A program made the translations under genes and the position numbers. A DNA stretch of 38,724 nucleotides. Origin: a virus. The notes under the pieces were generated by a model. It was not told the origin of the DNA and searched no databases. It worked only from the letters and a program-made list of their open reading frames with translations. Position 1 is the stretch's first letter; each line of letters starts with the position of its first letter. The DNA is taken from positions 1 through 38,724 of the IMG/VR virus record IMGVR_UViG_3300037485_000579, one strand, 5' to 3'. Below, one piece after another: positions 2,059 through 9,277 of the stretch.

Positions 2059-2603
2059 CAATATCCGAGTTCCAACAGAGGTCAGAAGCGATAACGGAGG
2101 CATGGAGTACGAACTTCATACCCCTATATCGTGCTGTTGAGGATTTGAAGGGCTTGATGTTCTTGCGGATATTCGGAACAGGAACAACAGGAGGGAGTAA
2201 CTCAGCAGGAGATAAACTTCCAACTGTTGGGTATTCTAAAGAACCTATCTACGTTTCATCATCATCTATAAAGAACGCTCCAGCATCATTTAAAAAGGGC
2301 AAGCGAGGCACACCGATTCAGTCACTATACTTCCCGAATGGATACGCTCAGTTAAAGAGTCAAACATCGGCGGTGCTGCCACTTCAGTTGACAGGAGCAT
2401 TGAAGTTTGGATTTCAGAGCAGCCCAGTAGAAGAGAGTGGTTTATCGGCATCCCTCACTATTATCTCATCCGAACTTGGCAAGGTCGAGGGATTAGAAAA
2501 CAAATACGGAACTATCTTTCAGCCGTCAAATGAAGAGATAAATGAGTTTGAATCATCGCTATCTGAGTACATCACAGAAGCGTTCAATAAAGGTCTGCAA
2601 TGA
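2055..2603 (+). CDS. Head-tail connector / neck protein candidate
   Basis: A 182-residue protein between a head-proximal protein and a fibre-like gene, overlapping both neighbours by 4 bases (ATGA type). Its C-terminal end, with NEEINEFESSLSEYITEAFN near residues 159-178, is a short acidic helix of the type seen in neck and tail-completion proteins. The central part is rich in Ser, Gly and Lys and has no enzyme motif. I assign a neck role from gene order and general character only. Confidence 0.5.
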   Translation: MTISEFQQRSEAITEAWSTNFIPLYRAVEDLKGLMFLRIFGTGTTGGSNSAGDKLPTVGYSKEPIYVSSSSIKNAPASFKKGKRGTPIQSLYFPNGYAQLKSQTSAVLPLQLTGALKFGFQSSPVEESGLSASLTIISSELGKVEGLENKYGTIFQPSNEEINEFESSLSEYITEAFNKGLQ

Positions 2604-5092
2604 ATCTACTATCTGAGATAATAAGTCGATTAAATCAACGCATTGGGGTTGCTAATATCTTTGATAAGCAGTTCGGGCTATGTGAGTTGAACGCCAACGG
2701 AAACGATAAGGCATGGATTCACTACATCGGTGACGGGCAGGGCGAGGTAGTAACCAACTTTGATGCCAAGCAAGGTACTATCTTCTGGGCGAAAAGAGGC
2801 AAGGTAAACATCAGCATCATTGACTCTCTCAAGGTCTCAGGATGCAAAAAGATGTATCAGACTACTTTCCCCTTGACAGCTTACGCTGTTGTCAGAAAGG
2901 CACACCTACCATGCGACTCAGAAGACGCTCAGGATTGGATTGCCTCACGGGTGTTCAAGCTGACTTCGGGAATGGACTTCGGATTCAAGCAGTCCATCGG
3001 GGTGATGTCTTACGAGGTGATACCTAACGGATACGCTAATGAGATTAAGTCACTCACGCAGAACTACGAATGGGCTTGCGTGAGTATTGATATTGACGTA
3101 CAAATAGTGAGTAGTGCGGATGACGGGTGCTATGATACGTGCCAAACGGGTGAGATACCACTACCACCGAACTACGCACCATGTACGCCATGCTTGACTG
3201 AAGTAGCTGTTGACGGCGTAACGATTACAGGAAACGGAACAGAGGCTGATCCATTAGTTGCAACTGGCGTAACTGCTGGCGGTACTATCATAGTAAAAGA
3301 TGAAGGAACGACTATTTCATCGGCTGCTACAACGGTCAATTTCACGGGAGCAGGAGTTACATCTTCTCTTACTTCGCCCGGGGTTGTTGAGGTGAATATT
3401 TCCGCAAGTGGAACACAGGTTAATTCAGATTGGAACGCGGTTAGTGGAGTAGCTGAAATACTAAACAAGCCTACCATTCCTGATGCTCAAGTTAATAGTG
3501 ATTGGAATGCTGTTTCGGGCGTTTCGGAAATCCTTAACAAACCAACTATCCCATCCATCGCCGGACTTGTTCCTTACACCGGAGCGACGGCTGCCGTTGA
3601 CCTTGGGCTTTTCGACATTACTGCTGCTCACCTTATCAAGGATGGCGGTGTAGATACTCAATTCCTAAAGGCTGATGGCAGCGTAGATAACAACGTCTAT
3701 CTCACATCTGCTGACCTACCGTCCACACTTGACCTATTTGCCACTACATCACCCGACCCAATTATTGGAGGATATTCTGTACTGGTTCGGAATATCCTTG
3801 ACCCACGATTCAATACGGTAGCTGTTGACGTTTCTACGGGAGCAATTACAACGACTACCCAGCTACTGTCATCCCTCATTTCTGATACTAATGTCATCTC
3901 AGGGAATCCCGGTCTATTCAACATCACCACCATCGGGAATATAACAAGGGTATCGGGAAGCGGAACGGCTGACTTTTTCTTTCGTATTTACAAGCGCGAT
4001 GCAGGAGGCACTGAAACATTCATCACTCAGTCAAGCAATACACTACCAGTAACAAATGGAGGATATGTTGAATTCTCTACTACCGCATTATGGAATGATG
4101 GTATATTCCTGTCAACTGATCGCATTGTTATTAAGTATTATGCGAACAGGATAGCCGGAGGAAGTAATCCGGTTTATCAATTTCAGTTCGGTGGTATCTC
4201 TCCTGTGAGGTCTGTTGCTGCTGTTCCGGTGGCTGTGCTACCTAACATCTACCTATCTGATTTGGCCGATGTTGAGAATGTGCCAGCATTGGATAACGAG
4301 GTGCTGTATTGGAACGATACAGCAAGTCTTTGGGAACACGCACTGGTTGATGATTTGGTAACCTCTGCTGCATTAACAAAGACAGATGATACGAACGTTA
4401 CGCTTACCCTTGGTGGCTCTCCTACTGATGCGCTACTTAATGCAGTATCGTTAACGCTTGGATGGACTGGCACTCTTGCAGATGCTCGTATTGCTTCTGC
4501 TGCGACATGGAACGCCAAACAGGATGCACTTGGATTCACACCCGTAACGAACGCACGAACGCTATCAATTAACGGGGTTGCATACGATCTGTCAGCAAAC
4601 CGATCGTGGATTATTCCAGCCCCTACGGTATGGAAAACAACAGCCGATAGCGCAGGACATTCAGGATTGCTTAATACTGTAAAGTATACGCAGCTTATCT
4701 CGGCGAATGAAATCGCCACTGGGGATATTTTGAGGCTTAATTATCGGGCAAGAAAAACAGGAATAGGAGGTTCTCAAACATTAAGAATATACGTCAACAC
4801 AACTGCTGACTTATCAGGATCGCCGATATTAATAGGCGGATGGTCTGGAGGTGGTGCTAATTCGTCATTGACAAATCAAATGATTCGGCACTTGTCGGTC
4901 AAAGATGCGAGCAATAACACAGAGGTGTTTTTTGCAGCAGGAGTAGGCGTTCCTACTGACTACGGATTATACGCAGCCCTTACAACTTGCGGAATTGACT
5001 GGACGGTTAACCAGTATTTCGTTTTTTGCGTTCAAAATAGCAACGCGGCGGATGTCAGTTACGGATCAATGTACTTAATCGAAAAATTATGA
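2600..5092 (+). CDS. Modular tail fibre with N-terminal tail-attachment domain
   Basis: An 830-residue protein. Residues 1-200 form a compact Cys-containing region resembling tail-completion domains. After it comes a beta-rich spacer, then two copies of a 21-residue repeat beginning VNSDWNAVSGV and ending LNKPTIP (3419-3481 and 3491-3553), then the phrases YTGATAAVDLG and QFLKADGSVD that recur in phage fibre shafts. The last 120 residues look like a beta-rich tip and are the likely receptor-binding end. It is followed by a coupled small gene and a second fibre-like protein. The fibre call is strong; the attachment role of the N-terminus is inferred. Confidence 0.75.
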   Translation: MNLLSEIISRLNQRIGVANIFDKQFGLCELNANGNDKAWIHYIGDGQGEVVTNFDAKQGTIFWAKRGKVNISIIDSLKVSGCKKMYQTTFPLTAYAVVRKAHLPCDSEDAQDWIASRVFKLTSGMDFGFKQSIGVMSYEVIPNGYANEIKSLTQNYEWACVSIDIDVQIVSSADDGCYDTCQTGEIPLPPNYAPCTPCLTEVAVDGVTITGNGTEADPLVATGVTAGGTIIVKDEGTTISSAATTVNFTGAGVTSSLTSPGVVEVNISASGTQVNSDWNAVSGVAEILNKPTIPDAQVNSDWNAVSGVSEILNKPTIPSIAGLVPYTGATAAVDLGLFDITAAHLIKDGGVDTQFLKADGSVDNNVYLTSADLPSTLDLFATTSPDPIIGGYSVLVRNILDPRFNTVAVDVSTGAITTTTQLLSSLISDTNVISGNPGLFNITTIGNITRVSGSGTADFFFRIYKRDAGGTETFITQSSNTLPVTNGGYVEFSTTALWNDGIFLSTDRIVIKYYANRIAGGSNPVYQFQFGGISPVRSVAAVPVAVLPNIYLSDLADVENVPALDNEVLYWNDTASLWEHALVDDLVTSAALTKTDDTNVTLTLGGSPTDALLNAVSLTLGWTGTLADARIASAATWNAKQDALGFTPVTNARTLSINGVAYDLSANRSWIIPAPTVWKTTADSAGHSGLLNTVKYTQLISANEIATGDILRLNYRARKTGIGGSQTLRIYVNTTADLSGSPILIGGWSGGGANSSLTNQMIRHLSVKDASNNTEVFFAAGVGVPTDYGLYAALTTCGIDWTVNQYFVFCVQNSNAADVSYGSMYLIEKL
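3419..3553 (+). repeat. Tandem 21-residue fibre repeat (2 copies)
   Basis: Two 63-nt units at 3419-3481 and 3491-3553, separated by 9 nt, encode the same 21 residues with one Ala/Ser change. Many synonymous positions differ, so the repeat is kept at the protein level and is not a recent duplication. Confidence 0.85.
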
Positions 5093-7074: not shown

Positions 7075-7329
7075 ATGAATCCTGATTACCCTCGTTGGTT
7101 GCGTGTACTTATTGCCATCGGCAAGAATTGGAAGGAGACGTTCGGGAGCGTTGCGATACTCGCTACCTTATATCTATGGTACTTCGACCAGATAACGCAG
7201 GAGAAAGCGGTATTCGGGCTTATTCTCCTTGTTGCTGGAGGGTTCATCAATAACACATTCGACTTCATCGGGCTGTTCCGGTACATCGGTAACTATAAGA
7301 AAGGAGGTAGCGATGCAACTGATGTATAG
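7075..7329 (+). CDS. Holin candidate (small membrane protein)
   Basis: An 84-residue protein with two hydrophobic segments, approximately residues 23-40 (FGSVAILATLYLWYF) and 46-62 (VFGLILLVAGGFINN), and a charged C-terminus with GNYKKGG. Size, topology and position soon after an endolysin that lacks an export signal support a holin that would form the inner-membrane lesion. The start is placed at the ATG at 7075 because the longer frame upstream lies wholly inside the previous gene. Confidence 0.65.
   Translation: MNPDYPRWLRVLIAIGKNWKETFGSVAILATLYLWYFDQITQEKAVFGLILLVAGGFINNTFDFIGLFRYIGNYKKGGSDATDV
7301..7308 (+). promoter_or_regulatory. Strong Shine-Dalgarno sequence AAGGAGGT
   Basis: An 8-nt stretch fully complementary to the 16S rRNA anti-SD core, 4 nt before the ATG at 7313. 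It stands out because nearly all other genes in the window lack any SD, as usual for Bacteroidota. It decides the start of the next gene inside the end of the holin candidate. Confidence 0.7.
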
Positions 7330-7777
7330 AGATACGGTGTACAACTCCAACGGTAGCTGGTTCACCTCCGATACCATGATTCATGTTCGCCAGTACAGGG
7401 AGGTGATAGCGCATGATCTCGTTAAGCTAAAGCCTACCATCGACCCTGACGGAACAGGTATGCTGTACTGGTACATCGGCATCAATGGTGATACTGTTGC
7501 ACTAAGTAGAGAATTAACTACCTTCGAGTACCAATTACCGAAGATGATTCAACCAGTACTTGACTCAGATACGATACAGCCGAACGGAGTTAGTCACCCA
7601 GCAGCAACAGCGTTTGTACCTTATTACCCAACTCATAAACAAGGAGCAACCACCTCAACAGATAGTGCTTTTCATGCAGCTATGTTCCCTGTGCTGGTGC
7701 TTATTACGGTAGCCTACCTATACCGAAGTATCTTAACAGGCAAATGGGCTTCATTATTTCGTGATTTAATAGCATAG
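7313..7777 (+). CDS. Membrane protein in lysis cassette, function unknown
   Basis: A 154-residue protein that starts 17 bases before the end of the holin candidate, behind a perfect SD. Most of it is polar and beta-rich (residues 1-115), followed by one hydrophobic segment near residues 123-141 (AAMFPVLVLITVAYLY) and a basic, hydrophobic tail. The large domain and a C-terminal anchor could fit an antiholin, spanin partner or pinholin regulator. No family is recognised. Translational coupling to the holin candidate suggests the two act together. Confidence 0.65.
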   Translation: MQLMYRDTVYNSNGSWFTSDTMIHVRQYREVIAHDLVKLKPTIDPDGTGMLYWYIGINGDTVALSRELTTFEYQLPKMIQPVLDSDTIQPNGVSHPAATAFVPYYPTHKQGATTSTDSAFHAAMFPVLVLITVAYLYRSILTGKWASLFRDLIA

Positions 7778-7800
7778 GGGCTGCTCCCTATGTTATATCT
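7773..7800 (+). terminator. Weak terminator hairpin after lysis membrane gene
   Basis: CATAGGGG (7773-7780) pairs with TCCCTATG (7785-7792) around a 4-nt loop. The stem includes the stop codon. The following TTATATCT is only a poor U-tract, so termination may be partial. Confidence 0.45.
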
Positions 7801-7811
7801 TGCAAAATAAA

Positions 7812-8381
7812 ATGGCTACTCGTTACATCCTTACAAACTCTATTGATCTACTCTATATCGTAACTGATCAATCAGGAGTGATAATAAGCAGTAACGACCT
7901 ATTCAAGGAGTACACCAGCCATATTCAACCATCCAAGGCAGCAGATGTGATGGCTGATGACACAGACAAAGATTCATTCATCGATTCTGTCAATAAGGCG
8001 AAAGGGTCAAAGCCTATCCCTATTCGATTCTACGCGAAGACAAAGCAGAAGTCAGGCTCTCTGAAGTGGAATCTATGGAACGTGTATTTCATACTCGGTA
8101 GCCTCCACTTCATCGGTGTACCAATCATAGACGTTACTTCGATAACTTCGCACGAATACGAACGGCAGAAAAAGCTATTGGAAGATTTCAGATTCATGTT
8201 ATCTCACGAACTTCGCCAGCCGTTGACATCTGTTGCCGGACTCGTCAAGTTAATGATTGAGAAGGACACGCTGGAAGATGACGGCGAGAACGGCGAGTTA
8301 TTGAACATGATACAAGAGAGCGTACAGCGGATGGATGACTCTATCCACGCTCTCGTTAACAAGGCAGCACGGGAACTATGA
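7812..8381 (+). CDS. Orphan PAS + HisKA (histidine phosphoacceptor) protein lacking an ATPase domain
   Basis: A 189-residue protein. Residues 1-110 look like a PAS sensor fold (IVTDQSGVIISSN near 16-28; LHFIGVPIIDVTSI near 98-111). Residues 118-186 are a two-helix dimerisation and phosphoacceptor domain with the H-box FRFMLSHELRQPLTSVAGL, in which His132 would be the phosphoacceptor. The protein ends after the second helix: there is no HATPase_c domain (no N, G1 or G2 boxes) here or in the next gene. By family knowledge it cannot phosphorylate itself. It could dimerise with a host kinase, drain phosphate, or act as a phosphatase. Its end overlaps the next gene (ATGA), within the lysis operon. 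The ATG at 7812 is preferred over a TTG four codons upstream. Confidence 0.85.
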   Translation: MATRYILTNSIDLLYIVTDQSGVIISSNDLFKEYTSHIQPSKAADVMADDTDKDSFIDSVNKAKGSKPIPIRFYAKTKQKSGSLKWNLWNVYFILGSLHFIGVPIIDVTSITSHEYERQKKLLEDFRFMLSHELRQPLTSVAGLVKLMIEKDTLEDDGENGELLNMIQESVQRMDDSIHALVNKAAREL

Positions 8382-8557
8382 ATGCACAGCTACTACCGAA
8401 GACTGAACAGGAAGCAGACGAGAGGCTTATTAACGTGGTGTGTAGCTACGTAGCCGAACGAGGGATGCCGATTAAGATAGCGTACCAAGTTCTGAAATGC
8501 AACCTGAAGGACAAATCTATGCTCGGAACGGGGCTGTTAAAACTTGCCAAGAAATGA
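8378..8557 (+). CDS. Small hypothetical protein
   Basis: A 59-residue frame linked by ATGA overlaps to both neighbours (start 8378, stop 8555-8557), which argues that it is translated. The sequence (MNAQLLPKTEQEADERLINV at the start, several Lys at the end) looks helical with one Cys pair of unknown meaning. No family is recognised. It does not supply the missing kinase domain of the gene before it. Confidence 0.6.
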   Translation: MNAQLLPKTEQEADERLINVVCSYVAERGMPIKIAYQVLKCNLKDKSMLGTGLLKLAKK

Positions 8558-9201
8558 CAACCGAACGATTGATATTATCAGCCATCATAGGGCTGCTACT
8601 TCTGATGCAGATAGGAACGTGCAACGAGAAGACGGCGTTAGAGGGTGACTACCGACTTATGAACGAACAGGCGAGGCTTATTACCGTGCAGCACATGGAA
8701 GATTCATCTGCGCTCTACTCTATGCGAATCAATCAGACCGATGGTAACGTGATAGTAGACGAGATAATGAAGATGAGAAAGCCTACCGAGGTCGTTAAGA
8801 TTGTCACTCGTACCGTTATCAAGACCGTTATCAAGCTGGCTGATCCTATACAGTTCGATTCTACCAACTACCTACGACTGCCACAGACGTTCAGCCAGTC
8901 AGATAAATGGATGAGTATAGACGGGGCGATTGACAGCACAGGAACGCTCAGGATTGACTCATTGATAAGTAGTGGCACATTCACCTATGCCGTGGGCGAT
9001 TCGGTTAGAAGTGGCTTGTTTAACCGTCTGTTCAAGGTATCCGATCCCGTGGTACGGTTGCACATCGACAACCCTGCGATTCAGCTAACCGGATTCAGTA
9101 ACGTGTACGCACGAAAGCAGCGTAAGTGGTGGCAGTCAACAGGAGCAAAAATAGGATTAGGAGTATTGGCTGGAGCTGTTGGTGTAACTTTATTGAAGTA
9201 A
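8554..9201 (+). CDS. Spanin-like envelope protein with two hydrophobic ends
   Basis: A 215-residue protein with an N-terminal membrane segment (residues 6-20, LILSAIIGLLLLMQIG), a long periplasmic-type region containing a helical stretch and beta-rich middle, and a C-terminal hydrophobic segment after KWWQSTGAK (GLGVLAGAVGVTLL). Envelope-spanning topology at the end of the lysis cassette suggests a unimolecular spanin that joins inner and outer membranes. A similar WW-(x)n-glycine-rich tail is common in late-region proteins of Bacteroidota phages. The spanin role is inferred from topology and location only. The ATG at 8554 overlaps the previous stop codon. Confidence 0.6.
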   Translation: MTTERLILSAIIGLLLLMQIGTCNEKTALEGDYRLMNEQARLITVQHMEDSSALYSMRINQTDGNVIVDEIMKMRKPTEVVKIVTRTVIKTVIKLADPIQFDSTNYLRLPQTFSQSDKWMSIDGAIDSTGTLRIDSLISSGTFTYAVGDSVRSGLFNRLFKVSDPVVRLHIDNPAIQLTGFSNVYARKQRKWWQSTGAKIGLGVLAGAVGVTLLK

Positions 9202-9245: not shown

Positions 9246-9277
9246 TTTGCAGAATCAAAATAAAAGAGTTTACTTTG
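9246..9277 (+). promoter_or_regulatory. Early promoter 1 (TTTG - 20 nt - TTACTTTG)
   Basis: A -33 TTTG at 9246-9249 and a -7 TTACTTTG (one mismatch to TAnnTTTG) at 9270-9277 with a 20-nt spacer, matching the Bacteroidota promoter layout. The 33-base segment 9245-9277 is repeated exactly at 10648-10680. It precedes the early gene at 9314 by about 36 nt. Confidence 0.8.

Follow-up and report, generated by a model that had tools for sequence, protein, structure and literature searches.

The stretch of viral DNA analysed here, referred to as the window, is the full length of IMG/VR record IMGVR_UViG_3300037485_000579 (38,724 nucleotides), and the gene of interest is an open reading frame at 7812..8381 on the + strand. 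It encodes a 189-amino-acid protein, PAS-DHp, which combines a PAS domain with a DHp (HisKA) domain and lacks HATPase, as read from the open reading frame, Pfam, the family alignment and AlphaFold2. Its ATG start is common to the whole PAS-DHp family. The PAS domain covers residues 10-106 (7839..8129, +), the DHp helical hairpin covers residues 113-188 (8148..8375, +), and the H-box SHELRQPLTS covers residues 131-140 (8202..8231, +), with the codon of the phosphoacceptor His132 at 8205-8207. Residues 129-181 are recognized by the Pfam HisKA profile (3e-11; 43.7 bits, cut-off 26.9). HATPase_c was not found in the Pfam search of this protein, and the Hpt profile gave no match at E up to 10, which sets it apart from the monomeric HPt proteins as Pfam defines them. 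Measured against a sensor histidine kinase, the protein has the HisKA/DHp domain with its phosphoacceptor histidine and does not have HATPase_c in the same chain. No membrane segments were predicted in it, which indicates a soluble protein.

The PAS domain of the window protein was not detected by Pfam, and one relative (L007) gave a weak PAS_9 match. AlphaFold2, supplied with 66 aligned family sequences, modelled residues ~11-100 as a PAS fold with a predicted local distance difference test score (pLDDT) of mostly 83-92. In the PDB the top Foldseek match was YF1 (4gcz), a LOV-histidine kinase, at E 4e-7, with 201 alignment columns that span PAS plus DHp, and VIA-align of residues 11-105 against PAS-B domains gave Z up to 14.5. 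Despite the silence of Pfam, the predicted PAS fold is clear from AlphaFold2, Foldseek and VIA-align. His37, Trp89, Asn90 and His99 are invariant, which makes them the first candidates for contact with a PAS ligand. A preliminary description of the sequence had proposed a profile search for PAS, HisKA and HATPase; HisKA and the absence of HATPase were recovered in this way, and PAS was recognized by its fold only. It had also recognized both dimerisation helices, which the model places at residues 113-150 and 157-188. Their pLDDT is only ~58-75 in the monomer model, as would be expected of a hairpin that needs a dimer partner.

A search with the window protein alone detected 5 relatives, and profile scans of IMG/VR detected 128, 344 and then 402 loci, so the family there numbers at least 402 loci. 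One further relative lies on a contig of 3.7 kb assigned to a Bacteroidota metagenome-assembled genome (MAG). With the family profile, members reach 300-350 bits and real kinases about 20-40, and the gap between them is empty. The phage group is common in sequence collections, yet the search of a collection of named phage records gave no PAS-DHp homologue above noise. The 172 members fetched correspond to 107 distinct proteins, which form 20 clusters at 90% identity, with identities as low as ~46%. All 107 proteins and 20 clusters keep His132 and Glu133 without exception, which agrees with the preliminary claim of an intact H-box and is the outcome of the conservation screen proposed with it. 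The His132 codon varies synonymously (CAC 77, CAT 30). The phage H-box consensus is FRFMLSHELRQPLTSIxGLV. The residue four positions after the histidine is Q in 105/107 and S in 2/107 proteins, and never T or N (0/107). Positions +7, +8 and +11 are fixed as T, S and G in the phage family, whereas +7 and +8 are variable in host kinases.

Members are 183-189 amino acids long in a shared frame and stop directly after helix 2. Complete members share this end point, with the endings KKATRQI/L, KKLTRQI, KKAARQI, RKAARQI, KKAAREL and NKAAREL. The ratio of nonsynonymous to synonymous variation (pN/pS) is 0.110 for the whole protein; by region it is 0.106 for PAS, 0.056 for the His-bearing helix 1 and 0.26 for the hairpin loop. 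Between the window and its nearest relatives, 30-43% of synonymous sites differ and only 1-4% of nonsynonymous sites. Selection on the family is strongly purifying, and it is strongest in the His-bearing helix.

HATPase_c (PF02518) was absent, even at E = 1, from all 34 phage records searched (32-62 kb, the window included). None of these records held a receiver domain above the cut-off, and one receiver-like match in one record fell below the threshold (15.9 bits, cut-off 30.2). Both searches gave matches in all 14 control genomes, which served as the positive control. HATPase_c is likewise missing from every homologue with its end present. These results bear out two earlier statements, namely that the protein stops where HATPase_c should begin and that the following genes do not supply it. 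Because the 34 records contain no HATPase_c and no receiver above the cut-off, the partner of PAS-DHp must be supplied by the host. No PADLOC defence model matched the protein at E up to 1.

The surrounding genes follow a near-invariant order of endolysin, holin-like protein, gene1, PAS-DHp, gene4 and gene3. The identity of the endolysin, a phage lysozyme (5815..6267, +), is sure (Pfam Phage_lysozyme, 2.8e-37), and its cluster occurs in 167/170 loci. The small membrane protein at 7075..7329 (+; MNPDYPRWL...) is a putative holin, since its position matches that of a two-transmembrane holin-like cluster found in 117 loci. gene1 (7313..7777, +) bears a C-terminal hydrophobic segment and stands directly upstream of PAS-DHp in 167/170 loci. 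gene4 (8378..8557, +) encodes a small soluble protein of 59 amino acids (family ~65) and lies directly 3' of PAS-DHp in 155 of the 170 loci; its start overlaps the PAS-DHp stop in the window, and the 4-base ATGA overlap recurs in 99/155. The gene4 product has the core ECDERLVKVxxxYVxERxMPxxVAxxIL, gave no family match and is a candidate partner of PAS-DHp. gene3 (8554..9201, +) encodes ~215 amino acids with an N-terminal transmembrane segment, then an invariant cysteine, and a hydrophobic C-terminal end. This putative spanin-like topology recalls unimolecular spanins, for which no profile match was found. The holin-like and spanin-like labels are readings of topology and position, without profile matches.

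Loci were also chosen independently of PAS-DHp by searching with the unrelated structural gene at 1012-2055. PAS-DHp is carried by 55/55 of the loci that have it or extend at least 9.5 kb further. The structural-gene loci without it all stop too early, and it is present in all 48 loci that have endolysin as well as gene3. This makes PAS-DHp a core gene of those phages whose structural gene is at least ~70% identical. An accessory cargo gene is ruled out by its 55/55 presence.

The box TAnnTTTG, the known Bacteroidota -7 box pattern, occurs mostly as TATCTTTG exactly 12 nt upstream of the PAS-DHp start in 107/169 relatives (e.g. L190, L065, L174). The window has a one-base-shorter variant, TATCTTGC, at 7796-7803 (+). 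A box at 12 nt suggests an almost leaderless PAS-DHp transcript. The preliminary placement in a lysis operon is thus upheld as to position, with endolysin, holin-like protein and gene1 on one side and gene4 and gene3 on the other, while a single operon remains a positional reading given the promoter-like box before the gene in many relatives. A hairpin between gene1 and PAS-DHp (7769..7796, +; 11-bp stem, -15.3 kcal/mol) is not conserved in the family. It was rejected as a terminator, as it is confined to the window clade and a terminator scan found none. Past gene3, a conserved block, TATTGCAGAATCAAAATAAGGTTCTACATTTG, containing TTG and TACATTTG, is found ~0.83-0.99 kb beyond the PAS-DHp stop codon, ahead of the replication genes (e.g. 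L073, L145, L193). In the window this TTG...TAnnTTTG-like block is degenerate (9247..9277, +). It is probably a host-type promoter that drives the early genes of the clade. Because PAS-DHp lies upstream of this presumed early promoter, its gene would form the end of the late or lysis side.

The host of the phage group is probably a member of Bacteroidota. In 148 Bacteroidota genomes, the best non-phage matches included ordinary kinases and proteins that stop right after DHp. A profile built from four such ATPase-less DHps detected more of them in 13/118 genomes at 1e-12. About 27 distinct cellular DHps (L106, L107, L108, L114, L198-L227) have 0-19 residues beyond the hairpin and always keep the histidine. 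PAS precedes DHp in those that were scanned, and two that were checked by Pfam are REC-PAS-DHp proteins. A single-domain receiver gene directly follows the ATPase-less DHp in five cases: L107 (922-2341), L108 (763-2183), L202, L205 and L207. In the 34 phage records no receiver above the cut-off is adjacent to PAS-DHp, and the neighbours are lysis-region genes. These findings suggest that the likely hosts hold working phosphorelay modules without an ATPase of their own, and the ATPase-less DHps with lone receivers are possibly an undescribed phosphorelay class. This class resembles the phage protein in ending at DHp with PAS in front, but has its own H-box (N..LR.IAW.QSH.VR.P.ANI.GL) and is usually longer. 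An acidic residue follows the histidine in 107/107 phage proteins, 23/27 full Bacteroidota kinases and 11/27 cellular ATPase-less DHps (Fisher p = 0.0016 for full kinases against ATPase-less DHps). The hhalign score of the phage family was 97.8 against the cellular ATPase-less DHps and 102.8 against full kinases, so by sequence it is not clearly nearer to the former.

Among known systems, the soluble PAS-HisKA-HATPase kinases of the FixL and YF1 type share with the phage protein a PAS domain followed by a DHp hairpin with an SHELR-type H-box. They differ in that the phage lacks HATPase in the protein, the operon and the genome, and has Q or S instead of T or N at His+4. Spo0B, ChpT and PhyT also have a kinase-derived DHp with a phosphoacceptor histidine and do not use ATP. 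Spo0B retains a degenerate Bergerat ATPase-like domain. The same domain is retained in ChpT and PhyT (PMC3433190, PMC5898713). In contrast to these proteins, which are all cellular, the phage protein is viral, has PAS in front and lacks the degenerate Bergerat domain entirely. PAS-DHp is most like the phosphoacceptor half of PAS-HisKA kinases or the Spo0B, ChpT and PhyT proteins, and is a member of neither group. PIT4 of Pseudomonas phage LSL4, which binds host kinase domains (PMC10714779), is another phage protein that acts on host two-component systems; it was likened by description, not by sequence. The preliminary description knew of no phage system of this kind, and no account of a phage PAS/HisKA protein without HATPase was found in the open-access papers searched.

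The favoured interpretation, to which we give a probability of roughly 0.4, is that a soluble PAS-DHp dimer serves as a phosphoacceptor in trans on host two-component signalling. DHp would form a homodimer or pair with a host PAS-HisKA kinase, and His132 would receive its phosphate through the ATPase domain of a host kinase or else from a host response regulator by back-transfer. Phosphate would thereby be diverted from, or relayed into, one conserved host pathway, and the PAS domain may tune this flow through a ligand or partner. Since its gene belongs to the lysis cassette and precedes the presumed early promoter, the protein would act at a late stage, when lysis is decided on or made ready. 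The acid after the phospho-histidine is needed for autophosphorylation by the ATPase domain. As Glu133 is kept in 107/107 proteins, His132 is probably still selected for phosphorylation by a kinase domain, which is necessarily that of the host. HisKA-type phosphatases use a T or N four residues after the histidine (E/D-x-x-T/N). Since neither occurs there in the family, ordinary HisKA-type phosphatase action is less likely, and Q may be a substitute. The residues fixed at the docking positions +7, +8 and +11, the low pN/pS of helix 1 and the core-gene status also count in favour of phosphoacceptance in trans. The preliminary description had offered three roles, namely union with a host sensor kinase, drainage of phosphate from a host response regulator and the sensing of a state in which lysis is delayed, and all three stay candidates. 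The occurrence of ATPase-less PAS-DHp and REC-PAS-DHp proteins in Bacteroidota means that such modules exist in likely hosts. A more specific proposal is that a host kinase phosphorylates this core lysis-cassette protein and that a host signal, through PAS and the host pathway, times or licences lysis, making PAS-DHp the viral half of a two-component system that the host completes; this proposal is unlikely as a whole.

Several observations weigh against phosphoacceptance in trans. Helix 1 is conserved throughout, and the conservation of His132 could partly reflect a structural or binding role. The HELRQPLTS H-box occurred in 0/395 Bacteroidota genomes, which suggests no specific host target, and the host link rests on the single match in the Bacteroidota MAG contig. 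The TAnnTTTG box of the 107/169 relatives could mean a timing separate from that of holin and endolysin. The DHp model is of low pLDDT as a monomer, and we only infer phosphotransfer, the partner and the role in lysis timing. Part of this evidence suits a non-catalytic binder, a dominant negative or decoy that moves no phosphate and instead traps a host kinase in dead heterodimers or blocks a response regulator by binding to it. Positions +7, +8 and +11 fall within the regulator-docking region of helix 1 (the region as given in PMC3433190), and in the phage family helix 1 and these positions are conserved as much as the histidine. PIT4 offers a precedent for such binding (PMC10714779). However, a binder need not retain the histidine and its adjacent acid in 107/107 proteins, and the acid is missing from 16/27 cellular ATPase-less DHps; this explanation is a serious one, though doubtful. 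It is less probable still that PAS senses a cell condition and that DHp is simply its dimeric output, setting the time of lysis by binding to gene4, gene1 or holin. The near-invariant place between holin/gene1 and gene4/gene3, the ATGA overlap (99/155) and the core status in the clade are in its favour, but gene neighbourhood by itself is weak evidence of interaction. This sensor would leave the intact phosphoacceptor with its invariant His-Glu unexplained, and PAS-DHp is soluble, while gene1, holin and gene3 bear membrane segments.

A histidine phosphotransferase of the Spo0B, ChpT and PhyT kind, moving phosphate between two host receiver domains, is improbable. A His-bearing DHp hairpin that does not use ATP is the working part of such proteins (PMC3433190, PMC5898713), and in host genomes lone receivers are found beside ATPase-less DHps. 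Against this, the phages have no receiver above the cut-off, the family retains an acid required solely for kinase reactions, and it wholly lacks the degenerate Bergerat-type domain of ChpT and PhyT. Mimicry of PhoR, the phosphate-regulon kinase, is very improbable, even though PhoR/PnpS is the best or near-best NCBIfam match for most members, with scores of up to 42.9 bits across PAS and DHp together. Taken by itself the PAS half gave no match, and the phage profile scores 18-20 bits against nine Bacteroidota PhoR proteins and 35-40 against many other Bacteroidota kinases. The PhoR signal is that of a generic SHELRxPLTSIxG H-box. The missing ATPase domain could also point to a functionless kinase fragment, either decayed or captured recently. 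This candidate was refuted by hundreds of same-length relatives, the invariant H-box, pN/pS of 0.11 and core-gene status, and its chance is negligible. The preliminary description had held that homologues with a full HATPase would imply simple decay; none was present among the 107 proteins. It had equally named homologues without a conserved His132 as grounds for refutation, and these too were absent among the 107.

If phosphoacceptance in trans is true, these phages bring one half of a signalling system and depend on a host phosphorelay to complete it, and the physiology of the host would be tied directly, at the molecular level, to a late stage of infection. It makes it possible to test whether host two-component signals are read by phages at lysis. 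It also draws notice to the Bacteroidota class of ATPase-less PAS-DHp proteins that are seemingly paired with lone receivers.

Other features were noted in the same region. The structural gene at 1012-2055 encodes 348 amino acids, is 69-78% identical across the clade and has no PHROG match. Upstream of it in relatives, a hairpin, a T run and TATCTTTG form a terminator-promoter junction. A tail-fibre-like gene occupies 2600-5092 of the window and contains repeated NSDWNAVSGVxEILNKPTIP units. Its N-terminal part is nearly identical to that of the relative L004, whereas its C-terminal part is very different.
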